NCBI GenBank assembly: GCA_016617855.1
Contig: JAECUM010003309.1
Span: 1-64,000, forward strand
Origin: Megalonaias nervosa
Lineage: Eukaryota; Mollusca; Bivalvia; Unionida; Unionidae
Direction: 5' to 3'
DNA length: 64,000 bases
Part shown: piece by piece, positions 33,996 through 55,605 of the stretch
How positions within the stretch are numbered: the first letter of the stretch is position 1
Layout: every line of letters starts with the position of its first letter
Made by a program: the position numbers and the translations under genes
Notes under the pieces: generated by a model
Seen by the model: only the letters and a program-made list of their open reading frames with translations
The model's database searches: none
Told to the model about the DNA's origin: nothing

Positions 33996-34005
33996 AGTAC
34001 TGAAG

Positions 34006-34410: not shown

Positions 34411-34426
34411 GGCCCTGAAAAGGGCC
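34411..34426 (-). terminator. Histone-type 3' stem-loop (left TIR gene)
   Basis: On the minus strand GGCCCTTTTCAGGGCC, a perfect 6-bp stem with a TTTC loop. It fits the metazoan histone mRNA 3' stem-loop (consensus GGYYCTTHTCAGRRCC). A purine-rich cgaaaaga follows about 15 nt downstream, where the histone downstream element lies. Confidence 0.8.
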
Positions 34427-34577
34427 TTTGGGTTCTTCTTCTATGTTCTCCATTTCTTCCACCAGGTTCTCACATTCTGTATGATTCAATTCTTCTGCTT
34501 CTTCTTTTTGTTCTCTTGCATCCAGTCAGGATGTCCCATAGATCTAAATTTTTCTTGCACTTTCATCCAGTTGTTGT

Positions 34578-35030
34578 TCAGTATCTCAAAACTCTTCTTT
34601 TTTTCTTTCTGTTTTCCCTCTCCTTTTTCTCTTTTGTCCACGTCTCTTCGATTTTCTTTACCTCATCTTCCATTACCTTTCTCATCATGTCTTCAGCTTT
34701 CTTTAATTTCTCTAATCCCCACAGGACAAAAGACCACTCAGTGAAATTGGCTATGTCTTGCAAAAAGCACCTCACTTGTATGACATTATCAAGGGCCTCC
34801 TTCAATGTTCCCACTCTCACATGTTTAGGATGGATGAAGCCTCTTAATTTCTCTACTTGCTCCTCTATCATGCCTAGCACTAGATCCCTGGTTACCTTCA
34901 GGCTGGTGACTTGACTGGTCACAAAGTCTTTCGTAACTGGATATCTCCATTCTTTTTCAAGCCTTTCCATCATATAGGCTGCATCACCATCCAGTACCAA
35001 CTGTGTTTCAAATCGTTGAACAAATCCATG
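34578..35030 (-). pseudogene. TIR-borne coiled-coil gene, left copy (frameshifted)
   Basis: Copy of the intact gene at 54985-55509. The true start (MDLFN) is at about 35029, but one G is missing after the ctggatg near 35000, so the reading leaves frame. The conserved body (KEWRYPVTKDFVTSQVTSLK ... LWGLEKLKKAEDMMRKV) is open from 35000. A second indel in an A-rich run near 34600 truncates the C-terminus (NRKKKRRVLRY). Function unknown; see the right copy. Confidence 0.85.
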
Positions 35031-35034
35031 TTGT

Positions 35035-35110
35035 GTTAACTAGTCAACGCTGGGTAGCCAGACTGACGACCGCTCCGAGTTATATACGTGAAGCACGGAC
35101 GTGAAGTAAA
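35035..35110 (-). promoter_or_regulatory. TATA promoter and leader module (left TIR gene)
   Basis: On the minus strand: cacgtccgtgcttcacgtat, TATATAAC, then a leader with cagtctggctacccagcgtt directly before the gene. The same order (GTCCGTGC, TATA, CAGTCTGGCTACCC, TTGAC) occurs at 36420-36495 and 54911-54980, and a cut version at about 37163-37194. Confidence 0.78.
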
Positions 35111-35129
35111 GCATCCCTTACACTCACTT

Positions 35130-35770
35130 CATATATTATATACTATCCACACAGAAGGGGAGAAAAGAAAAAGCACACCATATCTACTATTCACACAGAA
35201 GGGAAGAGAAGAAAAACACACCATATCTACTATCCACACAGAAGGGAAGAGAAGAAAAAAACACCATAAATACTATCCACACAGATGGGGAGAGAACAAA
35301 AAAAACACACCATATCTGCTATTCACACAGAAGGGAAGAGATGAAAACACACACCATATGTACTATCTACACAGAAGGGAAGAGAAAGAAAAAGTACACC
35401 ATATCTACTATCCATACAAACGTACGCGAACGCATAAAACACACCATATATACTATCCACAGAAACAAACGCGAACGCATAAAACACACCCATATCTACT
35501 ATCCACACAGACGGGAAGAGAAAAAAAAACAAACAAACCCCACGCCATATCTACTATCCACACAGAACGGAAGAGTTGAAAAAACACACCATATCTACTA
35601 TCCACACAAACGTACGCGAACGCATAAAACACACCATATATGCTATCAACACAAACGTACGCGAACGCATAAAACACACCATATCTACTATCCACACAGA
35701 CTGGAAGAGAAGAAAAAACACAACATATCTACTATACGCACAAACGTACGCGAACGCATAAAACACACAC
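35130..35770. repeat. Minisatellite in the left TIR of Element B
   Basis: About 14-15 units of 40-50 bp built on ccatatctactatccacaca followed by either a gaagggaagagaag or a cgtacgcgaacgcata variant. The two kinds are interspersed. The inverse array lies at about 54170-54880. Long frames in both directions through these arrays are repeat artefacts. Confidence 0.95.
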
Positions 35771-35881
35771 ACATACACACACAGACATACATCAGTAAAT
35801 GAGTAAGTGTTTATAGTCACACTGCTCTACATTCACGCAAATTGGCAACTTGAATAGTGTCTCTTTTTTAGAGATCTGGTT

Positions 35882-35897
35882 AGCCCTGAGAAGGGCT
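35882..35897 (-). terminator. Histone-type 3' stem-loop (second coiled-coil gene)
   Basis: Minus strand AGCCCTTCTCAGGGCT: perfect 6-bp stem, loop TCTC. A purine-rich aaaaaagagac, containing the AAAGAG typical of histone downstream elements, starts about 13 nt after the stem. It lies about 160 nt after the stop of the gene at 36054-36416. Confidence 0.78.
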
Positions 35898-36053
35898 GTT
35901 TTTCCTTGGAACTTCAGATGCACCTGGCTAATGGTGACTTCTCCCAGGCCGGGCACCATAGACACATCTCCTACTCCAATCATTTGCCCAATTCACATTT
36001 GTGATTAGGAGCATAGAGGCCTCTTGAATGGCTTCAGATCCCCAACCTTCAGT

Positions 36054-36416
36054 TTATGGGATTCTGAAGACTACCCTCTGTCTACTCCTATGCCGGACCC
36101 GGGGATGTTGTTGTTGTTGTGGTTGCTCTCTCAAGCTATCAATTTTGGGAGCCTCAGGTCTTGGTGCAGGTATTGTTTGCGGTGCTGGTACTGGCTGTGG
36201 AGGTGTACTGACCATTGGCTTCACCTCACACACAGGACTTAGCATAAGGTGGGGCAGGATACTTTCCTCCTTCTCTTTCTTCTTTTTCCTCTTCTCTTTC
36301 GCCTCTTTTATTTCGGCTTCCTCCTGTATTGCCTCCATGGCCAGTTCGTCTAGCAGTCGCCTGGCATACTCCAGGTGCATCTGAAGTTCCAGTAACTTTG
36401 CAATTCTGTTACTCAT
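36054..36416 (-). CDS. Coiled-coil protein with Pro/Gln-rich tail
   Basis: The start at 36416 (MSNRIAKLLELQMHLEYARR) is chosen because the promoter/leader module ends just upstream; the frame is open further up, but through that module. About 120 residues: a Glu/Lys coiled coil (EAEIKEAKEKRKKKKEKEES), then a Pro-rich segment (STPPQPVPAPQTIPAPRP) and Gln/Arg-rich end. It shares promoter, leader and 3' stem-loop with the TIR gene and the next gene, so the three are probably co-regulated paralogues or at least one regulon. Function unknown. Confidence 0.68.
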   Translation of the reverse strand: MSNRIAKLLELQMHLEYARRLLDELAMEAIQEEAEIKEAKEKRKKKKEKEESILPHLMLSPVCEVKPMVSTPPQPVPAPQTIPAPRPEAPKIDSLREQPQQQQHPRVRHRSRQRVVFRIP

Positions 36417-36419
36417 CCT

Positions 36420-36500
36420 CAACGTTGATACGTCAACGATGGGTAGCCAGACTGACGATCGCTTCGCTTTATATCCCTGGAGCACGGACGTGAATGAAAA
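36420..36500 (-). promoter_or_regulatory. TATA promoter and leader module (second coiled-coil gene)
   Basis: Minus strand: tgttttcattcacgtccgtg, TATAAAG within gggatataaagcg, then cagtctggctacccatcgtt and tgacgtatcaacg, ending 3 bp before the ATG. It matches the module of the TIR gene base for base in its core. Confidence 0.8.
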
Positions 36501-36749
36501 CATCACCTTACACCAAAACTTACAACACCACAATTACTATTACATGGAACGCGCGAACCTAAAAGAAACACTCACGTTGACTTCTTTACTTACACAGACA
36601 CACACAATCGGACTAGATAGAGAAACGAAGTGTGGATTTTTACTGACAAAAGAAACAAAGTGCTTATAGATACACTTCTATTTTTTAAAACATAAACACA
36701 CATATTTTCTTGGCAATTGAATTAGTATGACTTTTCGAGAGTGTTGGGT

Positions 36750-36765
36750 AGTCCTGAAAAGGGCT
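36750..36765 (-). terminator. Histone-type 3' stem-loop, one mismatch (third coiled-coil gene)
   Basis: Minus strand AGCCCTTTTCAGGACT: 6-bp stem with one mismatch and a TTTC loop; downstream tctcgaaaagtc is the purine-rich element. The sequence after the stem is similar to that at the other copies. Confidence 0.68.
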
Positions 36766-36889
36766 GTTTTTGTTGACGGGGGAGTGATGGCAATCTTTTA
36801 TCGTCTAAGATTGCGTCCCCGTCAGGCAGCAAACTCTCCTACAGGATACGGTCTGCTTCTTCGGAAAGAGAAGGAGAACTCCTTGGTGT

Positions 36890-37162
36890 CTACTCGGCAG
36901 TCGACAAAACCTCTGTCTGGCTCCTTCTTCTGCTGCTGTTGTTGTTGTTGCTGATCTCTTTGCTGCTTCTGAAGTCTATACTTTCTGTCCACTCTTCTTG
37001 TTCTTTCTTGATTTCTTCTCTGAAGAGTTCTATCAGGTTTTCGGTCACTTTCACCATCCTGACATTCTCTATCTCTTCAGGCTTTGGTATCAGGTTTTGC
37101 CTGACACGATGTAAATTCACGTAAGCTTCGTTCAGCTTCTCTAGTCTTGAAGGCATGTTCAT
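36890..37162 (-). CDS. Third small coiled-coil protein
   Basis: The start at 37162 (MNMPSRLEKLNEAYVNLHRV) is the first ATG; a TTG upstream is not used as a start in eukaryotes. About 90 residues: helical, with LIELFREEIKKEQEEWTESI, then Asn/Ser/Arg-rich end. Its leader (tggccatccatggttgactc) is the end of the shared promoter module, but the TATA part is missing because foreign sequence begins at about 37195. Hence it probably lost its promoter. Function unknown. Confidence 0.6.
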   Translation of the reverse strand: MNMPSRLEKLNEAYVNLHRVRQNLIPKPEEIENVRMVKVTENLIELFREEIKKEQEEWTESIDFRSSKEISNNNNSSRRRSQTEVLSTAE

Positions 37163-37559
37163 AGGTGAACGAGTCAACCATGGATGGCCAGACTACTTAC
37201 TTAATTTGGATTAAGGTCGCTTTCGCCAACTTGGGCATGTGCGACCGATTAATGCCCCCATTGGAGACTGATTGATTTTTTCGAGGGGGACAGGATAGTG
37301 ACGCGTCCCCTCGCTTTAATGCACACTGAGTGTGCTGATAGATTTTGTTCGTATTCGGGACATTGAGTTCCACGAGACAAGTCGTGAGTGGGAATTGACC
37401 CTCACGCACTCACATGGTTAGGTTAAAAATGCCCGGTCGAGGCAAGGCAGGAAAGGTGGTCTTGAGGAAGGCGTTGTACATCCGGGTTCTTTTTGAATCC
37501 CTATTTTCCGAAAAATAAATGTTGGCGTGTAGACGTAATTATAATTTGACAATAGTATT

Positions 37560-38000
37560 TGTGCTGTTTATAGAAGTGGTAATGATATAGTGGGCCAACA
37601 TATGCTAAATGTTAATTTAAATTTATTTGAATTAGTTACTATTTAGTTGCTGATTGATGGCTGGGTTTTGCCACCTTATATACTTAATGCGCCACCTTGT
37701 GTGGCTGGACCTGATGGCTTTGGAGTTGAACCACCTTATACAGATAATCTGAGGTCTTATGAGGTCTTATGCTATGTCTATATTATGTAGATTCAAGATT
37801 TTTAACGCGCCGCATTGTGCGGCTGGTCCTAATGGCGTTTGGTTTTAAGCCACCTTATAAAGCCAATTTGGGGTCTTACGTTATATTTAGTTAATTAATT
37901 AGTCAAATTGTTGCCGCATTGTGCAGCTGGACCTGATGGTTGGGTTTAGTGAAACCTTATAATGACTAAGTGTAATGGCCAGTTTATTTTTTTTTTTATT
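37560..38000. repeat. Tandem repeats in the 3' region of the LINE
   Basis: Diverged units of about 110-150 bp share gcgccaccttgtgtggctgg/gccgcattgtgcggctgg and ccaccttata. Seen three times. A 3' untranslated region with repeats is common in LINEs; no coding. Confidence 0.7.
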
Positions 38001-38499
38001 TTAATGATCCACTGTATCACAAGATGTAGACATAGGATGAGTTGTTAGTAATTTTATTCAGGAAAAATTGTGATAGATGGTTGTCGACTTTGATACCGGT
38101 AGTCATATTGCATTGTTTGACGGATCACAATCCCAATGCCGTATATGGCAGTTGAATTGTAAGGTATAGAAAGTTAAGTTGGTAAATAATGAACCTAGAT
38201 ACATGCAGTCGCATTGCATTGCCCGACGAACCACACCTCTCAACTCAAAATCGTTCCATGAGATCCGAGATGAGACAAGGGCTCCAGCCCGCGCATAGGC
38301 TGGTACATACCCCTAAGTGGGCCGTAAACCGAAGCCTCCACCCCATCTCGCACCCCCTGGTTCGATCATTTGGTGTGGCTAACGTCAGGCAACTGTTTCT
38401 GCTACTGCTTGTTATGATTTACGGTGACGAATTGGAGTATGAATTAAATTTTCTCAATTTTATCAATCTCATTAAGGAAGAGCAATATTGACTCGTTGG

Positions 38500-39560
38500 T
38501 TATGTTCGGGTTAGGGTTACTGTGGTATAATAGGTCTGGATAGGAACATGGCGAATCAATTGCTTTAATGGAAGTGAATAGTTTTTCCCTTTGTTTTGGT
38601 ATTTGTGGCAGGTGTTAAACACGTGGTGTAGATCCTCAGTACTTGGGCAATAGGGGCAATTAGGATTTCGTTCTGTATTGGATTTTATGTATCTCGCCAT
38701 ACTGCCTGCCAGCAATGTTTTCTCCAGTTTTAATTCTATTTATGATACGTTGGTCATGTTTATTAAGAGTTGGTGGGGGTTTGATTTAGCATATTTTTTA
38801 GAAGCAATCTTGTTTCTTTTAAGAAATTTTCCCTTCCAGTTGTATTTCCGGTTTCCAGGGAGTATAAAACGCTAAGCGAATCGCTAATTATTAGCGTTTT
38901 GGGGAATTTACGATTGTCTGCCAATTTGATCGCTTCTAATATAGCCCAGAATTCTGCTGTGTATGTAGAGCAGTTATTAGGTAGTCTTGATCCATGTTCT
39001 TCATTTATCTTCGGTATGGTAAGGGCAGCAGCGGTTTTGTCTGGGTGGATTGTTTTTGATCCATCGGTGTAAATTTTGATATAGTCTTTGTACTTGGTGT
39101 CGATTATTGTTAACACTTTGGATCTTATTTCTAGCGGGCGGTCTAGTTTAGAGCCAAAGGTTTTCGCTAGGAGATAAATGGTGGTTTTGTTTCATGTCCA
39201 AGTGGTCGGGTCTGGATATTTGGTGGTTTCCGTTTGGAGCTCTTCTATATTTAGTTCTTTACTTAATTAATGTATCTTCTTTTCTGATGGAGGGTTCGGA
39301 ACGAGGTTCTTACTGAATGAGAATTGATGGTATCTCTCGTAGGGTGTGAGGGATCATGTACCGAGACTCTCACTGCATATCTTAATATCAACTCTTCTCT
39401 TCTTAATGCGAGTGGTGTCTCACCTGTGAGGAGTTGCATTTCTTCTTTGGATGTGTTTGGTAGGGAGCCTGTACATATTTTAACGCCTTGGTTTGGATTA
39501 TGTCCAAATGTTTAAGAAGGGTCTGTTTTGCTGATGCGTAAATCTGGCACCCGTAGTCCA
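38500..39560 (-). pseudogene. LINE reverse transcriptase end and RNase H
   Basis: At 39560-39200 the translation reads SKLDYGCQIYASAKQTLLKH and LTGETPLALRREELILRYAV, the thumb region that follows a LINE reverse transcriptase. At 39116-38763 is RNase H: IKIYTDGSKT (first catalytic Asp), AEFWAILEAIKLADN (Glu) and LIISDSLSVLYSLE (Asp). At 38715-38500 is a zinc-finger-like CPYCPSTEDLHHVFNTC, the tail of such ORF2 proteins. The frames differ, so it is dead. Confidence 0.82.
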
Positions 39561-39599
39561 GTTTCGATCTAATTGGCAGTATTGGTTTGTTACCAGCAT

Positions 39600-41957
39600 T
39601 GATTTTCCATTGTTACCTGCATTGATTACCGGCGGGATTGGTTTGTTACCAGCATTGCTTTTTCCATTGTTACTTGAATTGCTTATTGGTTTGTTATTCT
39701 TTCTTCTGTATGGTTCAAAGTTTGGTGATATACACACATGATGTTTGTCTATCTGCAAATTTGAGATTGAACCGCTGTTATCACTAGCATTGCTTTTTGG
39801 GGTGAATTTGTGCTCAGTTTGCTCACTAATCCTTTTGATTGGTGGTAAGATTGGGTTCTCTGTCAGCTCAAGGGGAGTAGGGTAAGTAGATTGCTGGGAG
39901 GGTACTGTTCCCCTGCTCTGCTGTGTATGCGGTAGTGGCGTCAACGATTTGGCTCTTAGATAGGTTAAACTTTTTTCCTCCATAAGACGGATTATTTCCT
40001 TTTGCCTTAGGGCGTATGGACAGGAATTCGATTTGGGGTGATGTGGTTCTAGGCAGTTTGTGCATTTTTGTCCCTGAAAAGTGCACTTGCTACTGTGACC
40101 GCTGCCACAAGTGTCTCATTTGTGCTTGTATTTGCACCTGCTGGCTTGGTGGCCACATGCTTTGCAGTTGCTGAAAAAGCGTGGTTTGTTAGTGTAGTCT
40201 TCGAGGGGGATGGAATGGCCACCGAAAAAGACAAGTGGAGGTGGAGTTGTATAGAATTCTAGCAGAATTACCGATGACATAAGATCACGGTTTATCCGCA
40301 GTCTGTATGCCTTGGAGATATCAGCTCCTTGGGTTAACAGTTCGTGGGCGATCACTGTGTTGCTGAAGTTGATATATTTCTTGTAAAACCTCACAAACTT
40401 TTTATAAACAACACTATGTTTGGTAGTTTCTGCTTTATTGGATGTTGACTTTTCTTCTTCTTTGGTGATCTTTGGTACTTCTTGCTGTTGTTTTTCCTGG
40501 TGTTTAAAATTCGTCTTCAGCGAGTTATGCCTTGATATATATATTTTGGTTTGTCCAATTTTCTCAATCTCCATATATTTGGCCACCTGTTTCAGAGTGC
40601 TGCATCTCACTATTACATAATATGTGTTTGGTCTTAAGATTTCAAAGGTAGCTGAGTGGGTTCTGGTCAAGACCGATGCGATGCTTTTGGTACTTAGATT
40701 GATTTTTTGGAGTTGCCACAGCTGATAAAGAGTGTATGTTCCTTACTGTGGTATATTCTCTTGTTGGTTTTTGTTGTTAATTGTTACTGTACTAGGACTT
40801 TCTTCTTATCATTGTGTTGTTTGATTATTCCTTTCTTGGTCTTTTGTGCCTTTGATTTTCCGTCAGCAGGTGTTTTCCCTTTGCCATCGTATGCTTCTGG
40901 TCGGTCTATGTCTACTAAGGGGTGATAAAGCGTGCATGAGCATACTAATGCTAGGTTCACCTGTTTCCAATAAGTCTTCCATCGTGATTTCCTTGGATGG
41001 TCCAGGTGTTTGACTTGAGTGTAATACCTCTTTTTGGGAGTTTTTCTTGGTTCTCTTGGTGATTTCCAGTGTGGGGCTGGTAAGCGATTGCGGTGGTAAT
41101 AACCCAGTTTGCTTAGCGCTTTGCCCCTTGGCACAGGAGGTTTTTGCAGTGATTAGACCTGGGGTGTCCACCACCGCAGCACCTTGATGATTTGACCATT
41201 GAATTTGGTGAGGGATTGGGGAAGTTGGTGAAAGTGGTAATAGGGATTACATGGAGGCGGGTATGTGATTAGGGATTGAATTGAAAAGGAAGGAACATTT
41301 GGGGAAGATGGTAAATAAGGGGCAAGCAATTGGTTTGGGGGTGAAGGGCGAGGAGTGGAGGTTTGGTTAGGATCCTTACCAGCTACTCCATCTTTTAATA
41401 GAGACATTGCCTTCGGGTCTAATAGGGGGTAATGGGTTGTTTCAATCACAACCCCTTCTGCGGATACCATTGCACTGCTGGTGAGAACCACTTGAATAGG
41501 TTTTTTCGTATTAGGGGACATGTTTAATGTGTCTAGCATACCTGCAGATTCCAAGGCTGATGCGGGTGTGGCAATCACTGATGCAATAGTTGACGCATTC
41601 AGGTTGTTTGATTCTCCAGGAGTGCTTGGTAAAAAGGGGATTATTGAGGGGTTCAACGTCCACTGGTATTTTGGAATTCACATCAAGCGGGCACTGAACG
41701 AGTACACGGGCGGTGGGGGAGGATGAAAAACTTCCCATTACAGTAAGAAAGGTAATGGGACTTTTGACTTTTTTGAGGGCTCTGCCGACACCATCATTGC
41801 TAACATTCAAGTTTTGTGGGACAGGTGAGTATGATGGGGTGGTATTTGGGGAGTTGCATTTACTTGCCAATTTTAAGATATTGTTGACATTTTGCCTGAA
41901 TGAATTCATTTTAACTTGTGATCTAATTATTCGTAACATTTTGAAAAATGGAGCCAA
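39600..41957 (-). pseudogene. LINE ORF1 (nucleic-acid-binding, CCHC)
   Basis: It starts near 41957 with a Ser/Pro-rich region, spread over several frames. At 40670-40116 is an RRM-like segment (LRPNTYYVIVRCSTLKQVAK) and the first zinc knuckle (CKACGHQASRCKYKH). More Cys-His knuckles continue in other frames to about 39980. The end has Asn/Gly-rich imperfect repeats around 39570-39660, where the deletion junction with ORF2 lies. ORF1 proteins bind the element RNA. Confidence 0.75.
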
Positions 41958-42719
41958 AATTTGAAAAATGTTAAGTAGGTCAGGAGGTTGGTTTTCAGTA
42001 GTTAACTACTACTTTTGTTGAATCGTGAGCCTAAATAAATATTTCTAATTTTGTAATCAACAGGTTTATTACGGACAATTAATACAATTAATACTAATAA
42101 TGATAGCTAATTTGAGAATGTGATCTACAGTCACTGGTAGAAAATCTTGCAATGATCTGCAAGGGCTTGCCGACCTGCGAGGATTCCAGCCAGGTATAAG
42201 TCAGTGTGATTCCTGACACCTGTTGTGAGTTCTAGTTCACTATTTATCTTCCTTATTGAAACACTGAAATATAGGCTTTATACCCGACTGTATAGTTAAT
42301 TAACAGTCATATACTAAATTGGGGGTGGGGGTGGTTTGTTAGTGGACTGAGATAAAGATAAGAATAAAGTGAATAAATAAACAGCACAAAAAATCACCAG
42401 AAGGTTTATAACTAAATTGTAAAAATTACCTTTTAGATTCCAATCCCTAAATTAGTTTTGAATTAAAGAGGTGATAGCGTATTTCCGTTCTCCTGCTGGG
42501 CGGGCTGCCAGACCACAGCGCTGGTCGAAAAGGTTGATGGGCTGCTAGTCCACTTCTACTGGTCGAAACCGCTTGGCGGGCTGCAATCTGCTAGGCGGGC
42601 TGCAGTTCTGTTCCTATTTGACGATTTGATTTGGTGGTAGTCCCTGACAATTGATGCTACAACTTTTTGCTTTATGAATCTGTACACTTCTAAAGAGTGA
42701 CAAGACCCAATGTACGTGT

Positions 42720-42800
42720 GCTCAGCTTCCAATCGTGAATCTTGAGACTAGAGACTGCCTCGCATTATATGGCTCAAACGCGGATGCGATAGAAAACATC
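42720..42800 (-). promoter_or_regulatory. Diverged TATA module at the right edge of the LINE
   Basis: Minus strand tggggatgttttctatcgca, TATAATG within ccatataatgcg, then aggcagtctctagtctcaag. The order matches the module of the coiled-coil genes. No gene follows it before LINE sequence, so it probably belonged to an Element B gene lost when the LINE arrived. Confidence 0.55.
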
Positions 42801-42974
42801 CCCACTGGGTTTTTGTTGAGTTGGAACGTTATGACATAACTAATGTCATGGTGAGGGATAGAGAGAAAGTCAAAGAGCATATATTCACAGTGTTTTTTGG
42901 GAAACAAACGACGGACACATTTTTATTTCAAAACACAACATTTTTTTATTCAACGAACAACTAACAACTAACAT

Positions 42975-44072: not shown

Positions 44073-44123
44073 AGTTTCTAATAGTCTAGAATGACTTCTC
44101 TCAAACTGTTGATTTCTATGGTA

Positions 44124-47168: not shown

Positions 47169-47173
47169 GATGG

Positions 47174-48274
47174 TCACTGTTTTTTATGATCGATGATTTG
47201 CGAAGCGTCGATCCAAGAGTCAAAACTGGGAGGATATCCTTTCCAACGACTTTTTGACACGTCGTTCTCACACTTTTCGGGGTTCTTCGATCGAGAATGT
47301 TTTCGATCTCGTACACGTCGACTTCCTTTTTGGTCACACGTTGTAACTCGGGCAAGTAAAACGTTCCTTTAAACACTTCCCCGTTCATGTCTTCCAATTT
47401 ATAGACGGAAGGATAACGGCCACGCACTCGTTCAGTGACACGAAACAATTCAGTGGTCCAGTTGGGTGAGTAACCTTTATCGAAAGTGCGTTTGGTTTTG
47501 TCAATATGCACCCAATCTACTGCTGCCAACACTTCATCTTTCTTGGGGACAGTCACCGTTGGGGACATACCTAACAGGCGCTCGAAGACGGTCACTTCGT
47601 TATCAGGAGTCAATTCTTGGGCGCACGTCTGATGCTCCGATGGTAAGATTGGTTGTACGATTGGACCAGGTGCGGCAAGACGTCGATGTACTTGAGAGTG
47701 TGTTGATGCGTAAAATATTTCCACATGCGTTCTTTCAAGGTGCGTTGAAATCGTTCCACGATGCTGGCTTGGGTTCAGGGATTCTCAGTGGTGAAAAAAT
47801 GAATGTCACGTTTCTTCAATTCTTTTTGGAAAGCTTGTTTCAGAAATTCGGTGCCTTTGTTGGTTTGCCATCGAAGAGGGTGACGCCCGCTTTGTTCAAC
47901 ACCAGCTGGAGGGCTCGCACTAACTCACTGCTCGATTTGAAAGTCAATGGCACGACCCAGGCAAATTTGTAAAAGACGTCGATGACACAAAACAAACATT
48001 TGCAACCACGATTGTAGGTGGCCAAATGAGAGACATCGGCTAAATCGCCTTGCCATTGATGATTCATGCCCTCCACTCGGGTGCGATTTCTAGAAACTAT
48101 TCGTCAGTTGGGTTTGTGTAAGACGTACGTGGCTTGTTCTTGTAATCATCGTTGTACCTGAGGTAAACGGACACTTTTCAGTCGAGATTTGGCAGCACGA
48201 TATAATTTCTGAACTCCTCCGTAACCTGCAGGAAGGAATGGATCGTAGTAAATGCTGGCTAACAACTTCTCCAT
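47174..48274 (-). pseudogene. Retroviral-type integrase with chromodomain (frameshifted, second Asp lost)
   Basis: The start at 48274 is followed by LLASIYYDPFLPAGYGGVQK, the usual N-terminal segment. The core: NHQWQGDLADVSH (first catalytic Asp present) and LFCVIDVFYKFAWVVPL. The second catalytic position reads RWQTNKGTEFL, Asn in place of Asp. The Glu is in the ASIVERFQRTLKERM stretch at about 47730-47770. The C-terminal chromodomain has VYEIENILDRR and WKGYPPSFDSWIDAS. The reading changes frame several times. It made the 6-bp duplication when intact. Confidence 0.9.
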
Positions 48275-48277
48275 TTT

Positions 48278-48955
48278 TTAATAAGTTATCCACTCTTCAC
48301 TAATGGTACTCTGGATGGGGCGAAGGGGTGATTTAGAAACGGCTTTACGTGTCCGATGTGCCACGGGAGTAGAAGTCAAGGGTAGTAGTGGTGGTGGTGG
48401 TGACGGTAATGGGATGGCTTTGGTCTTCTTTTCTTTTATCACTTCTGGTTTCCCATCTTTCTTTTTGACTTCTGTCGAAGGGGGAATGGACATCATCTTT
48501 TTAACCCAAGCCTTAAGATCTTCTTGTTGGGGTGTAGGGGAAGGGGTCAACAAGGACGCTGAAATCTTACTAGGGATGGGAGCTGCTGACGGTGTTTGAA
48601 AGACTTCTCGTACGTCTTCTTCCTCAGGCATCCGTGGGGCTGCATCTGTCTTGACCGTTGGAGGTAGTGGTGGACTTTTCATCAGGGTCTTAAAATCTTT
48701 CAGAGTGGGTAGAGCTGTTTCGTCTAAAGCTTTCTGGTGAAAGAGTTGCAGTCGTTGCAACAGTTGACCGTACCGTTGAGATTTTTCCATTTCTGACAAA
48801 TCGCTGCGATCCATCAACGATTGCAATTCGTGTTGTAACTGGAACATCTCGGTCAAATGAGGATTGGGAGGTAAATGCGGGGTCCGTTATTCTTGCCAAC
48901 GATGGTATTCCATCCATCGTTTGTAAGGCACTAAATCCAGTTTTCGTCCTTCTAT
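48278..48955 (-). CDS. Coiled-coil/Pro-rich protein beside the integrase
   Basis: The main frame (48856-48278) has HELQSLMDRSDLSEMEKSQR and YGQLLQRLQLFHQKALDETA, a helical pair I recall from a Polinton protein of unknown role, then a long Pro/Ser/Lys linker. An upstream stretch in another frame (KLDLVPYKRWMEYHRWQE, about 48950-48895) looks like its N-terminus, so a frameshift near 48890 is probable. The end overlaps or abuts the integrase start. Function unknown; a core or scaffold role is possible. Confidence 0.62.
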
Positions 48956-49020
48956 CGGATTTCAATGGTCAAATCTGAGATCTTTTGATTCCAGAGGTCC
49001 CTTTATCTTTATTGATCCTG

Positions 49021-49415
49021 TTATCTTGGAGCTTTCGCGGGTAAAATATTTCCCAAGATACCCAACTTAGGTGCCGCTATTACTTTGGTAAGAAGTGGCA
49101 ACAGGGGTAAAATTCCTCCGGGTTGCACCAACATCTTTTTCTTTTGACGAATGAATATTTTCTTTTGGACCATTTGGCGAAGGATGTGTCGATGTTTGGC
49201 TAAGCATTCTTTCTGATGTTTTGGCAAGACATTCAGACAACATTTGCTCACGGTATCGATGACGTCTTTGGAGGCGGTTTGATGAGTTGTTTTCTCGTGG
49301 GTGGAGAAGCTTTGGACAGGACGGACATGTCCCAATGTTTGACTAAACGAGGATGCAGTCCTTTTGTCTTCTTTCCTTTGCGGGTAGAAGAAGGATGTCT
49401 CTTGGGGGATGACAT
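49021..49415 (-). pseudogene. Core-protein-like gene, copy 1
   Basis: The start at 49415 (MSSPKRHPSSTRKGKKTKGL) gives a basic N-terminus. The C-terminal part is in another frame (to 49021): ECLAKHRHILRQMVQKKIFI, then KKKMLVQPGGILPLLPLL. A basic stretch followed by Q-x-GG and a hydrophobic end is typical of a small Polinton core-type protein (pX-like, DNA condensing). A TATA-like gataaaagg is at 49492-49500. Copies 2-4 follow upstream. Confidence 0.68.
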
Positions 49416-49493
49416 CTTTGTTTGTTGGCTGGTTGGTTCCGGATCATACACCAAAAATACACTAACCTCGATGACTTGGCACACGGCCTTTTA

Positions 49494-49773
49494 TCATTTT
49501 TTTTGGACTATTGCTTCGTCAAAAAAGGTGACGATCTGTTTTCTAAAATCGCCAAAGAATCCTCCTCTTTGGCGGCTACACTTTTTCTTTGGACAAGTAT
49601 GTCTTTTCTGGAGGTGACGTCGATGTTTGCCTAAGTGTTTTTTCGGACGACGAGAATGTCTTTTTCTTTTTTTTTTCCTTTTTGGACAGAAGAAACACAA
49701 TGGTGACAGTGTGCACTTCTTCGAGCGGATATCTTTGAGCGTTTAGGAGCACACACAAATACACCTTAGTCAT
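49494..49773 (-). pseudogene. Core-protein-like gene, copy 2
   Basis: The start ATG at 49773 lies just after ataaaagg (49790-49797) and a ggacacgtgtcaagccaatg leader. The basic segment, in a shifted frame, reads RRPKKHLGKHRRHLQKRHTC and then KKKCSRQRGGFFGDFRK, homologous to copy 1 (KHRHILRQ ... QPGG). It would be a highly basic DNA-binding protein. The N-terminal and basic parts are offset by one base near an A-rich run. Confidence 0.62.
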
Positions 49774-49799
49774 TGGCTTGACACGTGTCCTTTTATCTT

Positions 49800-50070
49800 A
49801 ATTTTTTATTTTTGATAAGAGTTTTTATTCTATTCTTTTTGACTACATTTTCTATATCGCCAAAAAGTCGTCCCCTTTGTTTGCTTCTCCTTTTCTGGGG
49901 TGACATCTATCCTTGGCTAAGTGTTTTTTCGGATGACGTGACTGTCCTTTTCTTTTTCCTTTTTGGACAGGAGAACGACGATGGTGTGCACTTCATTGAG
50001 GGGATATGTTTTTTGGTTCAGGAGCAAAAAAATATACACTTAAGTCCTTGGCTTGACATGCGTCCTTTCA
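49800..50070 (-). pseudogene. Core-protein-like gene, copy 3
   Basis: Third tandem copy by sequence: leader gatgaaaggacgcatgtcaa, then LNEVHTIVVLLSKKEKEK, and a basic stretch SRHPKKHLAKDRCHPRKG in another frame. The TATA-like box has decayed (gatgaaagg instead of gataaaagg) and stops interrupt it. Confidence 0.58.
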
Positions 50071-50079
50071 TCTTATTTT

Positions 50080-50320
50080 TCTGATAAGGTTTAACAGAAA
50101 AAATCCTCCCTTTAGGTGGCTCCTCTTTTTCTTTGGACGAGTGTGTCTTCTCTGGGGGTGATGTCGATATTTGGCGAAGCGCTTTTTCGGATGACGTGAC
50201 TGTCCTTTTCTTTTTCATTTTCTTTTTGGACAGAAGAACGACGGTGTACACTTCTTTGAGGGGCCATCTTTGGGCGTTCAGGGGCACAAAAACACTGAAC
50301 CTATAGTTTACCTCAGGTCT
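50080..50320 (-). pseudogene. Core-protein-like gene, copy 4
   Basis: The ATG at about 50267 starts MAPQRSVHRRSSVQK; the basic part in the shifted frame reads HPKKRFAKYRHHPQRRHTRP and KKKRSHLKGGFFLLN. A TATA-like atataaaaaag lies at about 50312-50322. Spacing between the boxes of successive copies is about 300, 280 and 240 bp. Confidence 0.6.
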
Positions 50321-50382
50321 TTTTTATATTGGAATGCGTCGCCACTGATTGTCGGCTCGTCGTATCATTTTCATGGCAGGCA

Positions 50383-51214
50383 TCACATGTCGTGGAGGGG
50401 TTCGCAAGGACTCAATCGAGACAGTTCTTGCTTGGACAAATCAAGTAAACTCTTGAACACGTCCGATCTCTCTTGGACTTTGATTTTGGGGGCAGGTACT
50501 TTGTGAGCAGCGGCCACTACCGCTAAAGAGGAAGAGGGTGTCACATCTGGAGGAGTAGTTCATGGAGACGCGGGTTTCCAATATTTCATCAAATTAGGAA
50601 CGACGCGTGTCAAATCTGGTTTGGCAGGCATCACCAGCAACAGAGAAGTGGAAGAACCTGAGGCTACTGGAGATGCAGTCACCGTTGCGGCAGGTCGTGG
50701 TTTGCGAATGTAAGATTGCGTCCTGACTGCAGTGCCTCTCTTGCGGGTAGAAGCTGTTTTCTGTGGGCTTTTCTTTTTCTTTATCTGAGGCTGTGACCTG
50801 GTCTTGACACCGCTGCTCTTTTTCTTTTTCTTCTTGGTACCTCGGGAGTGGCTTTTTTCTTGGGGAGGACTTTGGAAGCATTAGGATCCCATTTTAAGAG
50901 GGAACGAATGATGACACCTCCTAGAGAACCGCTACCTCCAGGTTTCAAAATGATCTGCTTTTTGGTTTGGGTGTCGATGCGAGGATCGGCCAGTTGCGTC
51001 AAGGCTACTTTATTTCTGTTAAAAAAGCGTTTGGTTTGATGAAGAATGTGAATGATGCCTTGCAGTAATTGACGTGCTGTTACCGTAAACCCTCTTAAGA
51101 CTTCTTTCAGAATAGCTTCTAAGACACGAGCACGTATTTGTGGATTTTTTAGCGACTGATGCCGTACAAGACACGAATCAATTTGCCGGGAAGATGAGAC
51201 TGAAGGGACGTCAT
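50383..51214 (-). pseudogene. Larger core-like protein with Q-x-PGG motif (frameshifted)
   Basis: The start at 51214 (MTSLQSHLPGKLIRVLYGIS) runs into a stop within 20 codons. The body in another frame holds VLEAILKEVLRGFTVTARQL, FFNRNKVALTQLADPRID and KKQIILKPGGSGSLGGVIIR, the same basic-then-PGG-then-hydrophobic plan as the four tandem genes. A basic KRKRAAVSR-type region and SKKKKSPQKTASTRKRGTAV follow, then a helical end (FKSLLDLSKQELSRLSP) to 50383. It is probably the parental gene of the tandem array. A DNA-condensing role is inferred. Confidence 0.68.
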
Positions 51215-51322
51215 GTTGACGCTGTGTGAGACAGACCCAAAGAGACCGAGATTTGTATAGACTTTTTTTGATTGTTGTTGTGAAGTCGACGACGGGGACG
51301 TGTACACGACAGGCGCTCTGTC

Positions 51323-51994
51323 TTAGCACCAGTGGTGAAACAGATAATAATCGGTGGTGGTGGGTTTTAAATCCACGAGTAAATAAGTGTGTGGGGTTTG
51401 AGTGGCATCATCGTACGCATGAGTCAGCCAAGGCGTTCCTAACTGTTTGGCTCCGACTTGCACTTGCTATTTTTATCTCTAGGGCTTTTAAACAAGACCA
51501 CGTAATTAACATTGAGATTGATGGTGATGGGCTTTAATTTGCTGAAACAAATTTTGGTAGATGTAAATGACACTGGCATTACGATGATGCCCTTTGCGCG
51601 TAAACCACATTTTAATTTCTTTTTCGTCTTCTCCTAACATGTCGTCGAAGATGACCAGATGGGTTTGACTACGGTGAAACACGATTCCGTCATCTTCGCC
51701 CGGTATGCCTTATACAAATACGATGGAATCGCCTTGACTTTCTCGCAGAAGGCCGTACGCCGATGACCACTCTTTGTAACACCACACGATTCGTTGAGGT
51801 GGACGATCGATCAAATGATGTTTATGTTCGATCAAACGTTTGACAAATTCGATTTTCCCTAAACCGCTAGGTCCGGCAATGAGCATGTTAAAGGGATGGC
51901 GAAGATACAAGGCCTCCCAACTAGCACGATCTAAGTGTTCGTCGATGACTTTGAAAGTGGAGGAAGAATGATCAGAGACAGTAGTGGTAGCCAT
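51323..51994 (-). pseudogene. FtsK/A32-like packaging ATPase of Element B (damaged Walker A, frameshifted)
   Basis: The start at 51994 (MATTTVSDHSSSTFKVIDEH). Walker A reads LIAGPSGLGKIEFVKRL: the Ser/Thr after GK is replaced by Ile (ATC). Downstream in other frames: HLVIFDDMLGEDEKEI (Walker B), WFTRKGHHRNASVIYIYQNL, and a C-terminal QLGTPWLTHAYDDATQTPHT. It should pump DNA into the capsid. A TATA-like tataaaaac lies at about 52043-52051, 50 bp before the ATG. Confidence 0.88.
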
Positions 51995-52080
51995 AGTACT
52001 GTAAGGAATGTCACTTTTGACACGAAGACAGACAAGACAAAGAGTTTTTATACGTTTTCAGGACACGTTTATTGCCATCT

Positions 52081-52437
52081 TTAATTGTGAACAACACGAA
52101 AGACAAAAATACATAAAAGCCAAATGGTTAAGTACATGAATAAAAGACACATCAAAACGATCATAGTGGAACATAAACAAGTCTTTGTACAACATGTTTG
52201 GTGATCAAGATGGGGCATCGTATGGACAGTGTGTAATGTTCTTAGAGTCTCTATACTCCTTGGCACAGTCACACAGGGGTCCTCTCGGAATGGCCTTTCG
52301 GGGATGTCAATGGCGGTCCTGTCCTGTCCTGAAGGGAGTGGTTCTTCTTCTTCTTCTGGCGCTGTCACTAACACAGGTTTAAAAGTTACTTTTTTCACTG
52401 AACGTTTTAATTCTTTAGGATGACAAATCTTGGGCAT
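52081..52437 (-). CDS. Acidic protein with C-terminal membrane anchor
   Basis: 118 residues, start at 52437 (MPKICHPKELKRSVKKVTFK). Acidic linker APEEEEEPLPSG, then near the C-terminus a Cys pair (TCCTKTC) and a single strong membrane segment, MIVLMCLLFMYLTIWLLCIF. A type II or tail-anchored protein with the polar part in the cytosol or virion is likely. Not recognised; intact. Confidence 0.62.
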   Translation of the reverse strand: MPKICHPKELKRSVKKVTFKPVLVTAPEEEEEPLPSGQDRTAIDIPERPFREDPCVTVPRSIETLRTLHTVHTMPHLDHQTCCTKTCLCSTMIVLMCLLFMYLTIWLLCIFVFRVVHN

Positions 52438-52881
52438 AGTGTGCTACTTCTTTTTCCCAAGCCTCGAAACCCCAACTTTTCCAGTCACGTACATCTTTCC
52501 AGTGAGGTTGTAAGTCACAAGCTACACACACATCATCGTACACATCTTCAGCACCTAAAAGTTGACGAATCTTTCTTTCCTGTAGAGGTCGAGAAGTATC
52601 GAGATGAAAGCGCAAGGCTTTTAACAGAACGAGTTTTTCGTGTGCATTTAAAGGGACACTTTCATGTTTTGGTTGGTATGTACTGTTCGTAAAGAGTCCA
52701 CATGGAATCGGCTGGTAATCAAAATCCCAGAAAGCAAGTCACTAAGACACACACTACACGTCGACCCCAATTCAATGGACACAGTTCTCGTAAAATGCGA
52801 TGGTAATCCTCCACCGTTTGAATATTGTCATTGATTTCCTTCCACGGAATCTGTTGTATCTCGAATGATAAATATCGTGGC
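52415..52881 (-). pseudogene. Hypothetical Element B protein (frameshifted)
   Basis: It starts at about 52881 (MPRYLSFEIQQIPWKEINDN, then VEDYHRILRELCPLNWGRR). The frame is lost near 52700. The C-terminal part reads LVLLKALRFHLDTSRPLQER, KIRQLLGAEDVYDDVCVACD and FEAWEKEVAHYAQDLSS. Mostly helical; no family named. A TATA-like tataaaat lies at about 52893-52900. It overlaps the next gene's start by 22 bp. Confidence 0.6.
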
Positions 52882-52895
52882 ATGGCAGTCCGATT

Positions 52896-53351
52896 TTATA
52901 CCTCTTTTTGTCGGAGGCAATAAGTGTACTTTCTGCACAGAGATGATCGTACTCCAGTGGCGAATCTAAATTGTTTAGTCAATAACTTGCACATCACATA
53001 CCGTTCAGAAGTTTCCTCTTGAACTAAGTTTACATTGTGTAAAAGATTTTGGTAACCCTCTAACTCTTCTTCTGGAATTCGTTGCAGTATGTCTACCTTG
53101 TAGTAAAAAGAATCAGTAACAAACCAATCCTTCTTGCATAGGGGTAGTTGAACAATGTCTGACCATTGGAACGCTTTCATCAGAATCAGTGCTCTTATAG
53201 CATTTAGGTACCAGTGGTTTAAACATTGGTGACGTAACGGATGCAGTTGTTCTTTGCGTTTCACTTGTATTTTGACCAACTCTCGGTAAATGCGTTCTCT
53301 CAACTCCACAGGCAAAGCACGAATGTTCTCTTGTAATGTATCCATGACCAT
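52896..53351 (-). CDS. F-box-like protein, copy 1
   Basis: The start ATG is at 53351 (MVMDTLQENIRALPVELRER); a TTG upstream is not used. The N-terminus IRALPVELRERIYRELVKIQ resembles the first helices of an F-box (LP-x-EL-x-x-x-I). The rest is helical and rich in Leu, Arg and Cys (CNHWYLNAIRAL-type stretches). F-box proteins couple SKP1-cullin ubiquitin ligases to targets, so a host-modulating role is possible but unproven. It is a paralogue of the next gene. Intact. Confidence 0.6.
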   Translation of the reverse strand: MVMDTLQENIRALPVELRERIYRELVKIQVKRKEQLHPLRHQCLNHWYLNAIRALILMKAFQWSDIVQLPLCKKDWFVTDSFYYKVDILQRIPEEELEGYQNLLHNVNLVQEETSERYVMCKLLTKQFRFATGVRSSLCRKYTYCLRQKEV

Positions 53352-53356
53352 GTCAG

Positions 53357-53669
53357 TCAAACACTTCTCCTACAGCGAAAGTGACGGATGTAGTGAGTAA
53401 TTTCTGGCCACTGCCATTCCAGGAAACGGTCAAGAATGTCATAAAAATCTTCCAATGTAAACGGTCTAAAGCGGAATATTCGGAAAAACGCACACTTGAT
53501 CCAGAGAAATCTGAATTGTTTGTTGACTTTTGTCAATTTCCTTTTGTGAATTTCTCGACATAAAAGTTCCTCAGTCACCAAATGAGATTTTGCTCTGACA
53601 AGTCCCTGCCAAATTTCCTTGTAGATCTTCTCTTGCAATTCGTTTGGTAATCTTTGAATATTATTTTTT
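53357..53669 (-). pseudogene. F-box-like protein, copy 2 (no ATG)
   Basis: NIQRLPNELQEKIYKEIWQG aligns with the N-terminus of copy 1, followed by RAKSHLVTEELLCREIHKRK and FRPFTLEDFYDILDRFLEWQ. The frame has no ATG upstream of the F-box-like segment, so the start codon was lost or lies on another exon. A short AT-rich promoter-like stretch precedes it (agtatttaaacccc). Confidence 0.58.
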
Positions 53670-53754
53670 AAATGGGGTTTAAATACTTATCTAGGTGTTG
53701 TCCAACGTTTGACTCCTAGCCAAGCTGGTTTCTTACACGACATGGTATACCGCT

Positions 53755-54117
53755 TCAATGACGAGATCCCACTAAAGGTAGGTAGTGACAATCCGGAGAC
53801 CATCGAGCATGTTCCAGGTAAGCGGAATCTTTCTTCTCCCACTCGTGAAGTGACACACCGCAACTGAAGCACTTGACTTTATCCGCTTCGCTCAAGTAGA
53901 TAAATCCGGCTCTGGCTAATACTTTGGGGGTAGGTCCTCCCAGATATTTAGGCCATTTTCCTCGGAAGGTATGCAATCGACTTTCAAAGTCACAGTATTC
54001 AGGCAAACACACAGGGAACGAATATTCGTCTTTCACAGGTTCATTTCGATGAGGGTACGCTGAAATCCGAAAGAGTTTACTCTGTTTTGGATGACATCCG
54101 TATGGTGGTAGCCGCAT
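53755..54117 (-). CDS. BIR-domain (inhibitor-of-apoptosis-like) protein
   Basis: The start is taken at 54117 (MRLPPYGCHPKQSKLFRISA) because further upstream the frame is only minisatellite translation. About 120 residues with a single BIR: ESRLHTFRGKWPKYLGG, then LARAGFIYLSEADKVKCFSC (first two Cys), HEWEKKDSAYLEHARWSPDC (His and Cys). These four are the zinc ligands. BIR proteins bind caspases or pro-apoptotic partners; in a virus this would delay host-cell death. No RING is present. It sits immediately inside the right TIR, transcribed away from it, the position of an accessory gene. Confidence 0.88.
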   Translation of the reverse strand: MRLPPYGCHPKQSKLFRISAYPHRNEPVKDEYSFPVCLPEYCDFESRLHTFRGKWPKYLGGPTPKVLARAGFIYLSEADKVKCFSCGVSLHEWEKKDSAYLEHARWSPDCHYLPLVGSRH

Positions 54118-54169
54118 GGTTTCATAATGACATCCACCATGACAACCAGTAAAGTGAAAAGGTGAACGA

Positions 54170-54880
54170 TGTGGATAGTAGATATGGTGTGGTTTTAATC
54201 TTCTCTTCCCGTCCGTGTGGATAGTAGATATGGTGTGTTTTATGCCTTCGCGTTCGTTTGTGTGGATATTGTACCTTTGTGTGGATAGTAGATATGGGTG
54301 TGTTTTATGCATTCGCGTTCATTTGTGTGGATAGTATATATGTTGTGTTTCATGCGTTCGCGTACGTTTGTGTGGATAGTAGATATGGTGTTTCTTCTTC
54401 TCTTCCCTTCTGTGTGGATAGCAGACACGGTGTGTTTTTTTTCTTCTCTTCCCTTATGTATGGATAGTATATATGGTGCATGGTGTGTTTTTTTCTTCTC
54501 TTCCCGTATGTGTGGATAGTATATATGGTGTGTTTTATGCGTTCGTGTACATTTGTGTGGACAGTAGATATGGTGTTTCTTCATCTCTTCCCTTCTGTGT
54601 GATAGTAGATATGGTGTGTTTTTATGTTCTCTTCCCGTCTGTGTGGATAGTATATATGGTGTGTTTTATGCGTTCGCGTTCGTTTGTGTTGATAGTATAT
54701 ATGGTGTGTTTTATGCGTTCGCGTATGTTTGTATGGATAGTAGATATGGTGTGTTTTTTCTTCTATTCCCTTCTGTGTGGATAGTATATATGGTGTGTTT
54801 TTCTTCTCTTCCCTTCTGTGTAAATAGTAGATATGGTGTGTTTTTTCTTTTCTCCCCTTCTGTGTGGATAGTATATAATA
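54170..54880. repeat. Minisatellite in the right TIR of Element B
   Basis: Inverse of the array at 35130-35770. Units on tgtgtggatagtagatatgg with either cttctcttcccttc or gttcgcgtacgttt variants; the count and order of variants differ from the left array. It separates the BIR gene from the divergently transcribed TIR gene. Confidence 0.94.
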
Positions 54881-54910
54881 TATGAAGTGAATGTAAGGGA
54901 TGTTTTCCTT

Positions 54911-54984
54911 CACGTCCGTGCTTCACGTATATAACTCAGTGCGGTCATCAGTCTGGCTACCCAGCGTTGACTAGTCAACACAAC
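54911..54984 (+). promoter_or_regulatory. TATA promoter and leader module (right TIR gene)
   Basis: cacgtccgtgcttcacg, TATATAA at 54928-54934, an initiator-like tcatcagtctgg at 54945-54956, then gctacccagcgttgactagt and the ATG at 54985. TATA to initiator spacing is about 22 nt, a little shorter than usual. Confidence 0.8.
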
Positions 54985-55509
54985 ATGGATCTGTTCAACG
55001 AACTGAAACACAGTTGGTACTGGATGGGTGATGCAGCCTATGTGGTGGAAAGGCTTGAGAAAGAATGGAGATATCCAGTTACGAAAGACTTTGTGACCAG
55101 TCAAGTCACCAGCCTGAAGGTAGCCAGGGATCTAGTGTTAGGCATGATAGAGGAGCAAGTAGAGAAATTAAGAGGCTTCATCCATCCTAAATATGTGAGT
55201 GTGGGAACATTGAAGGAGGCCCTTGATAATGTCATACAAGTGAGGTGTTTTTTGCAAGACATATCCAATTTCACCGAGTGGTCTTTTGTCCTGTGGGGAT
55301 TAGAGAAATTAAAGAAAGCTGAAGACATGAGGAGAAAGGTAATGGAAGAAGAGGTAAAGAAAATCAAAGAGACCTGGACAAAAGAGAGAAATGAGAAGGC
55401 AAACAGAAAGAGAAAAGAAGAGTTCGAGATACTGAACAACAACTGGATGAAAGTGCAAGAAAAATTTAGATCTATGGGACATCCTGACTGGATGCAAGAG
55501 AAGGAATAG
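54985..55509 (+). CDS. TIR-borne coiled-coil protein, intact right copy
   Basis: 174 residues. The ATG at 54985 (MDLFNELKHSWYWMGDAAYV) is chosen over the frame's earlier ATG at 54967 because it matches the start of the left copy and follows the leader. The helical body FVTSQVTSLKVARDLVLGMI and LRGFIHPKYVSVGTLKEALD is followed by a Lys/Glu coiled coil (KKIKETWTKERNEKANRKRK) and MGHPDWMQEKE. No family recognised. As part of the TIR it is present twice per element; only this copy is intact. It ends with a histone-type stem-loop at 55590-55605. Confidence 0.8.
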   Translation: MDLFNELKHSWYWMGDAAYVVERLEKEWRYPVTKDFVTSQVTSLKVARDLVLGMIEEQVEKLRGFIHPKYVSVGTLKEALDNVIQVRCFLQDISNFTEWSFVLWGLEKLKKAEDMRRKVMEEEVKKIKETWTKERNEKANRKRKEEFEILNNNWMKVQEKFRSMGHPDWMQEKE

Positions 55510-55589
55510 AAGAAAAAGAAGAAGAATTGAATCATACAGAAAGGGAGAACCTGGTGGAAGAAATGGAGAATATAGAAGAAGAACCCAAA

Positions 55590-55605
55590 GGCCCTTTTCA
55601 GGGCC
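55590..55605 (+). terminator. Histone-type 3' stem-loop (right TIR gene)
   Basis: GGCCCTTTTCAGGGCC, perfect 6-bp stem, TTTC loop, 80 nt after the stop codon. It is followed by tatctcgaaaagattt, the purine-rich downstream element. Same as the left copy at 34411-34426. Confidence 0.82.

Follow-up and report, generated by a model that had tools for sequence, protein, structure and literature searches.

Histone messengers are described in PMC12775136 as the only class of metazoan mRNA without a poly(A) tail. Their 3' ends are formed when SLBP binds a hairpin, the U7 small nuclear ribonucleoprotein (snRNP) binds an element downstream, and the transcript is cleaved without polyadenylation (PMC9756948 and PMC12775136). 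PMC12775136 adds that SLBP recognises a particular base, G7, and an A-rich 5' flank. By its account SLBP increases about 20-fold during S phase, and decay of the mRNA requires a hairpin near the stop codon. The subject here is a set of hairpins of this kind on small genes of a mobile element, Element B, a Polinton (or Maverick) in the bivalve Megalonaias nervosa. The element lies in a stretch of 64,000 nucleotides (nt), positions 1 to 64,000 of contig JAECUM010003309.1 in assembly GCA_016617855.1, called the window in what follows.

Bivalve Polintons have inverted terminal repeats, PolB, an rve integrase with a chromodomain, an ATPase of FtsK/A32 type, an adenovirus-type protease and a capsid protein. 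The present element is like them in all of this and differs in having histone-type 3' ends on five terminal genes (g1 to g4 and gR, the first three being genes 1 to 3 of the window). Those ends share with metazoan replication-dependent histone genes the 6-bp stem, the 4-nt loop, the A-rich 5' flank, the purine-rich downstream element and the nearby stop codon, but the genes that bear them are mobile and are not histone genes, the stems of g2 and g3 are closed by A-U, and g3 and g4 often carry a poly(A) hexamer behind the hairpin. Bracovirus histone H4 genes, another case in which viral genes are linked to histones, are captured histone genes, whereas here it is non-histone genes that bear the histone RNA signal. 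A search of the openly licensed PMC literature gave nothing that joins the histone stem-loop with a Polinton, with a virus's own genes or with a transposon's genes. Histone-type ends and Polintons are both known kinds; within the reach of these searches, the novelty is a set of non-histone genes that bear such ends in a mobile element.

I propose that the hairpins are, very probably, 3'-end signals of the working histone type, through which small terminal genes of the Polinton use the host's SLBP and U7 processing. A first-pass annotation, made from the letters of the window, had read them in the same way, as marks of SLBP-bound, non-polyadenylated, S-phase-coupled transcripts, and that interpretation is supported.

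Four hairpins in the window

The annotation had placed four hairpins in Element B, each 3' of a small coiled-coil gene. All four are where it put them, on the strands it gave. With the element and the downstream cores they are:

34005 to 56008, strand not applicable: Element B, a Polinton/Maverick copy, taken between its outermost inverted arms; inverted repeats I1-I4, protease and integrase fragments, a BIR gene; the full gene set is found in C371, a sister copy
34411 to 34426, minus: histone-type hairpin 1, GGCCCTTTTCAGGGCC; RF00032 37.9 bits (match 34387-34431); 14 nt past the terminal stop of gene 1
34392 to 34396, minus: downstream element core AAAAG in CGAAAAGA, gene 1 left copy, of the histone-downstream type
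35882 to 35897, minus: histone-type hairpin 2, AGCCCTTCTCAGGGCT; RF00032 25.3 bits, E 0.0083 (match 35858-35902), under gathering
35863 to 35867, minus: downstream element core AAAAG in AAAAAAGAGAC, gene 2
36750 to 36765, minus: histone-type hairpin 3, AGCCCTTTTCAGGACT; RF00032 21.4 bits, E 0.25 (match 36724-36770), under gathering; one pair mismatched
36731 to 36735, minus: downstream element core AAAAG, gene 3
55590 to 55605, plus: histone-type hairpin 4, the inverted-repeat copy of hairpin 1; RF00032 37.9 bits (match 55585-55629)
55620 to 55624, plus: downstream element core AAAAG, gene 1 right copy

The likeness to the metazoan histone stem-loop holds when the Rfam covariance model, RF00032, is run over the window. 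It picks exactly these four sites and nothing further at E<=10, E-values being computed over 4,227 families. Sites 1 and 4 (E 1.6e-7) exceed the curated gathering score of 34 bits; the scores, which the annotation had allowed might prove to be background, are in the case of site 1 far above it. A strict hairpin grammar passes three of the four sites (site 3 fails) and nothing else in the window, as against a mean of 0.05 sites, at most 1, in 100 second-order Markov sequences. If the 16-mer is sought with up to three mismatches, five places appear, the four sites plus 40070-40085, in my view a chance match; the mean over 100 shuffles is 0.11.

The annotation needs amending in its details. Four sites are present, but sites 1 and 4, one in each arm of a terminal inverted repeat, are counted once, leaving three genes. 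The stem of six pairs is intact in sites 1, 2 and 4, while site 3 has a mismatched pair in this decayed copy. A purine-rich element does follow each site; its distance, put at 12 to 16 nt, measures 14 nt from the end of the stem to AAAAG in every case. The small genes are indeed 5' of the hairpins, but the frame of gene 1 is broken here by in-frame stops and, in the left copy, by frameshifts as well.

Sister copies, host histone genes and distant Polintons

The exact 18-mer GGCCCTTTTCAGGGCCAC, the hairpin plus AC, occurs 5,811 times in the 2.19-Gb host genome (2,873 forward and 2,938 reverse), and its reversed control occurs 0 times forward and 0 times reverse. The element is present in thousands of copies. 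When the gene 1 protein was compared with the host genome, 150 of 6,610 candidates were scored and all 150 were matches, so there are at least 150. Among 100 listed places of the 18-mer are 14 pairs of hairpins 19-21.5 kb apart, and both ends of ten of these pairs were analysed. The ten sister copies have up to five hairpin genes, g1, g2 and g3 at one end and, at the other, g4 and gR, a divergent pair. Since copies of g1 and gR were picked by their exact hairpin, they are excluded from the evidence of conservation; g2, g3 and g4 were not picked by their own. The hairpin of g2 is found in nine of the ten copies and so is that of g4, counting as g4 by position the hairpins of L026 and L031 that automatic sorting had given to g3. 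That of g3 passes the grammar in eight and is present in a mutated version in the other two. Related elements thus carry the hairpin at the same places, where the annotation had conceded that its absence would tell against it, and so does one of the seven distant Polinton contigs described below. At E<=1, RF00032 recovers 23 of the 24 grammar hairpins in ten ends (60 kb); above gathering it makes 16 matches over the 20 element ends, 15 of them among the 20 terminal g1/gR hairpins and one at a g4.

The hairpins are restricted to the small terminal genes. That the capsid block lacks them, as the annotation had said, holds in other copies: in the middles of six, 54.4 kb in all, Rfam finds 0 matches at E<=5. 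In sister copy C371 the genes without a hairpin encode a protease-like protein, the capsid, an integrase with chromodomain, an ATPase of FtsK/A32 type, an inhibitor-of-apoptosis (IAP) protein with BIR, PolB and a CCHC protein. The absence of the signal from the capsid, protease, integrase, ATPase, polymerase and IAP genes implies two classes of expression within one element. The Polinton assignment draws on C371 for the genes (PolB 131.5 bits, rve 51.4, Chromo 37.8, Pox_A32 32.0) and on the window for the inverted terminal repeats on either side. The protease match in C371 is weak (Peptidase_C5, 17.4 bits, cut-off 21.3), and the capsid protein is named through relatives, one of them with PF21738.

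The anatomy of the hairpins can be judged from 52 of them, 51 from the host genome (three from the window) and one from the distant contig L061. At pair 1 there are 29 G-C, 23 A-U and 0 mispairs; pair 2 is mispaired once; pair 3 is C-G in 39, U-G in 10, U-A in 1 and something else in 2. The stem has six pairs and the loop four nucleotides (TTTC, TCTC or TATC), U being constant at loop positions 1 and 3. A single pair is broken in three hairpins, window site 3 and the g3 hairpins of L014 and L022. Past the stem, at a short fixed distance, comes a purine-rich element of U7 type with the AAAAGA core of the host H2A gene, lost in one g1 copy, L029. Of 38 gene ends, from five genes, 36 have a stop codon 11-59 nt before the hairpin and two lack a stop where one is expected (these 38, of 48 hairpin sites, are those with a gene alignment that reaches the C-terminus). 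Base 2 of the stem is G in 51 of the 52, and I take it for the G7 of PMC12775136; on that footing the element hairpins have the G7, the flank and the stop distance that the paper describes.

There are also signs that the hairpin has been maintained. Covariation over 19 distinct rows (of 37 given) scores 0.262, compared with 0.168 in shuffles, 0 of 500 being as high, and 97.4% of cells pair. Genome-wide, stems with A..T paired number 3,001 and those with A..C mispaired 250, with 0 in controls, in counts that mix genes. Differences per site over the 16 positions of the hairpin are 0.022 in g2, 0.064 in g3 and 0.062 in g4 (10, 11 and 9 rows, one g2 and one g4 copy being excluded for having no hairpin), as against 0.20-0.26 at positions -100 to -41. 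The 45 nt downstream are conserved as well in g2 and g4 (about 0.05-0.2). Among copies with an alignment covering >60% of the gene, the median ratio of nonsynonymous to synonymous change (dN/dS) is 0.226 for g1, 0.227 for g2, 0.204 for g3, 0.334 for g4 and 0.258 for gR, with median dS of 0.90, 0.95, 0.32, 0.20 and 0.64.

Host histone genes offer a direct comparison. Queries with histones led to 16 host loci that were scanned; a seventeenth, L048, is an element copy, and L049 lay outside the scan. Three of the 16 give an RF00032 match at E<=1, and in one of these the score passes gathering. At C13988 stands what I take to be an H2A gene. It ends in GGCCCTTTTCAGGGCC and then ACCAAATAGCCAGAAAAGATGTGATATTTTGATTGCC, its 16-nt hairpin being identical to that of gene 1, and the region downstream reads AGAAAAGATGT..GATTGCC. 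The corresponding sequence of L048 is ATTCATATGTCTAGAAAAGATGTCTATTTTCGATTGCC, closely similar downstream to the host H2A gene. An origin of L048 as a poly(A) retrocopy was considered and rejected, its run of A continuing into what was read as terminal repeat. Two H2B-like host loci have the same hairpin or one a single base different, and one of their frames has an internal stop. The histone-query search missed most canonical histone genes of the host. SLBP itself is present in the host, PF15247 giving 67.6 and 39.5 bits (cut-off 27), with RNA-binding motifs in two exons.

Beyond the host, an alignment of capsid proteins found seven distant Polinton contigs in bacterial bins, to which DNA of animals or viruses had presumably been misassigned. 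Among them L061, whose capsid is 32% identical, also encodes an integrase, a TATA-binding-protein (TBP)-like protein and PolB, and has a further frame that I read as the protease. Its hairpin GGCCCTTATCAGGGCC, with AAAAAAGAGA downstream, scores 35.8 bits with RF00032 and lies 28 nt past the stop of a C2H2 zinc-finger gene of 89 residues. The TBP homologue (L061 1129-1692, plus strand, 95 bits) adjoins that gene. The closest named relatives of the capsid protein come from Mercenaria, Ostrea, Crassostrea and Saccostrea and are annotated F54H12.2-like.

The hairpin genes and their surroundings

The remaining features of the hairpin genes in the window are these:

34441 to 35029, minus: gene 1 left copy, small helical/coiled-coil protein, frame broken; relatives P0001-P0006
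35043 to 35066, minus: shared leader TCAGTCTGGCTACCCAGCGTTGAC of gene 1 left; TATATAA upstream at 35080-35086
35928 to 36416 (ends approximate), minus: gene 2, a small protein rich in Glu and Lys, interrupted here by an in-frame stop
36432 to 36455, minus: shared leader of gene 2, equal to that of gene 1 except at one variable base
36798 to 37156 (ends approximate), minus: gene 3, a small protein, broken here
37173 to 37196, minus: diverged shared leader of gene 3, 5 mismatches
54948 to 54971, plus: shared leader of gene 1 right copy; TATATAA at 54928
54985 to 55575, plus: gene 1 right copy, in-frame stops inside

The leader common to genes 1-3, TCAGTCTGGCTACCCA, lies 3' of a TATA box and has diverged in gene 3. 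It was not found, with up to six mismatches allowed, at the right-end genes g4 and gR of sister copies.

Six proteins in the public JGI and ENA collections are related to gene 1; they are 184-195 residues long and 49-60% identical to the window copy. Five of them end in WWxxxR plus one residue and the sixth in WLKKWRK; the window copy keeps this C-terminal tail, closing in TAG 14 nt before the hairpin. That the hairpin genes might be histones is rejected: a Pfam scan of window genes 1-3 and of g1-g4 and gR of C371 gave no histone match at E<=0.1. The predicted fold of the relative P0001 has five helices, with a mean predicted local distance difference test (pLDDT) score of 81, and no PDB match below E 0.06. 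By sequence there is a weak match to ferritin (E 0.045), which led nowhere. Searches of viral contigs with gene 1, with the gene-1 alignment, with the capsid fragment of the window, with the C371 capsid and with the capsid alignment gave nothing useful, nor did a search of genome contigs with gene 1.

Element B of the window is a decayed copy with an insertion inside that resembles a long interspersed nuclear element (LINE). Gag-like frames and an RNase H match at 38763-42000 (minus) probably mark that LINE-type insertion. Two fragments of Element B resemble frames of a second element and are read as protease and integrase. This second element, Element A (15147-30770), is a different Polinton-like one that encodes a helicase of SF1 type and a capsid protein of double-jelly-roll type; the scan of the window gave no RF00032 match in it. 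In Element B there is no match to g4 or gR, and the right end repeats the left. The extended terminal arms, 34005-35260 and 54754-56008, look as if a copy of the left end had replaced the right; ten other copies have a different hairpin gene, gR, in the right-hand place, so the window copy seems to have duplicated its left end. In each arm (35100-35800 and 54190-54900), repeats of the type ccatatctactatccacaca separate gene 1 from its neighbours. An inhibitor-of-apoptosis (BIR) gene is found on the minus strand at 53755-54318, and again in L054 at 7960-8604 (minus), with 76 and 82 bits; its product is likely to serve host survival. A CCHC zinc-knuckle gene in L031 (3494-4000, plus, 52 bits) converges on g4 and has no hairpin.

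Proposed histone-type processing and its rivals

The proposed mechanism runs as follows. RNA polymerase II would start at a TATA/initiator-like promoter, giving transcripts of genes 1-3 their common leader. Host SLBP would bind the hairpin right past the stop codon, and the U7 snRNP would pair with the purine-rich element about 14 nt beyond the stem, the 5' end of U7 being the proposed partner of CUAGAAAAGA. The histone cleavage complex would then cut a few bases past the stem, so that the capped mRNA would have no poly(A) tail. Two things would limit these mRNAs to cells that are replicating DNA: the level of SLBP, and a hairpin as close to the stop codon as the decay of histone mRNA requires. 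I infer each of these steps, from promoter use through SLBP binding, U7 pairing and cleavage to the absence of poly(A) and restriction to S phase; binding by SLBP, a missing poly(A) tail and coupling to S phase would follow by analogy with the known pathway only. From sequence, the histone-type nature of the 3' ends is well supported. Histone-type processing of the hairpin genes is highly probable, and restriction of their mRNAs to S phase fairly likely.

Several observations weigh against this proposal. Where they were scored, the hairpins of g2, of g3 and of all g4 but one fall under the RF00032 gathering threshold. None of the host candidates scored for U7 snRNA (RF00066) is a match, but these were 65 of 657,865 and the result is uninformative. 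Pairs with double changes are not unusual (200 of 500 shuffles), and the type of pair 1 follows the gene, A-U in g2 and g3, G-C in g1 and gR, both in g4; covarying changes that go largely with the gene stand for few events. The diversity figures come from copies that have the hairpin, and in g2 the hairpin is only slightly better conserved than the stretch 46-110 nt downstream (0.075). With conservation extending downstream, the conserved block is the whole 3' region and not the hairpin alone. Six of the seven distant Polinton contigs have no RF00032 match at E<=5, two of them (L062, L063) being about 4 kb long and too short to judge. Of two hairpin patterns sought in viral contigs, one found none and the other three stretches without RF00032. 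To these must be added the hexamers considered next.

Genes with two kinds of end are the alternative that survives best. In that case SLBP would bind the hairpin but many transcripts would be polyadenylated further on, the hairpin serving as a partial or conditional end as it does in some histone genes. A poly(A) hexamer (ATTAAA or AATAAA) starts 60-61 nt past the hairpin's first base in nine of nine g4 and 55-85 nt past it in six of ten g3, so that a second, polyadenylated form is possible for these two genes, and human H2AC18 is produced both ways according to PMC9756948. But g1, g2 and gR have no canonical hexamer within 250 nt of the hairpin (0 of 29). Hexamers are a weak guide either way, since only two of the nine gene or frame ends of C371 that lack a hairpin have one within 400 nt. 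I regard dual ends as possible but unlikely.

The hairpin might instead be a passive relic, the terminal modules having been captured along with a host histone 3' end that is no longer used. The identity of the gene 1 hairpin with that of the host H2A gene, and the further similarity downstream in L048, are what a relic would leave. It would hardly leave the hairpin on five genes per element, each with flanks of its own, or keep it while synonymous sites changed, and a distant Polinton has it on another gene. A relic is very improbable. So too, and to be doubted strongly, is the idea that thousands of transcribed hairpins act mainly as decoys that titrate host SLBP and do not regulate their own genes. 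The number of exact g1/gR-type hairpins with AC behind them, 5,811, would suit a decoy. Against it, gene 1 is broken in many copies, internal stops standing in many of the 150 scored, and the genes upstream of the hairpins show dN/dS of 0.20-0.33.

A device acting at the level of DNA, a palindrome for replication, packaging or recombination that resembles the histone hairpin, would account for sites near the element ends, two of them here in inverted arms. It is extremely unlikely and is rejected on strand and placement: the hairpins lie on the coding strand right past the stop codon, with a strand-specific loop and downstream element, and genes 2-4, further inside, have them too. Chance resemblance, for which the scores of sites 2 and 3 under the gathering threshold might speak, has a negligible claim: it is refuted by the sister copies, and the shuffle and Markov controls, the reversed 18-mer count of 0 and the distant L061 tell against it too.

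If histone-type processing of these genes is what it appears to be, they would be the first known non-histone users of histone-type ends, and a whole gene set at that. A DNA element would have a concrete route by which to read host replication, and poly(A)-selected RNA-seq would miss the transcripts. The purpose may be coupling to host replication, a high yield of small proteins during synthesis of element DNA, or escape from control based on poly(A). I lean, if only slightly, towards a wider view: that the Polintons of animals, and perhaps viruses of animals related to them, maintain an SLBP regulon, in which small terminal genes end in the hairpin and the virion and polymerase genes do not. 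Early expression would thereby be tied to host S phase and poly(A)-dependent control bypassed, in an arrangement that arose or was kept across elements whose capsids share about a third of their residues.

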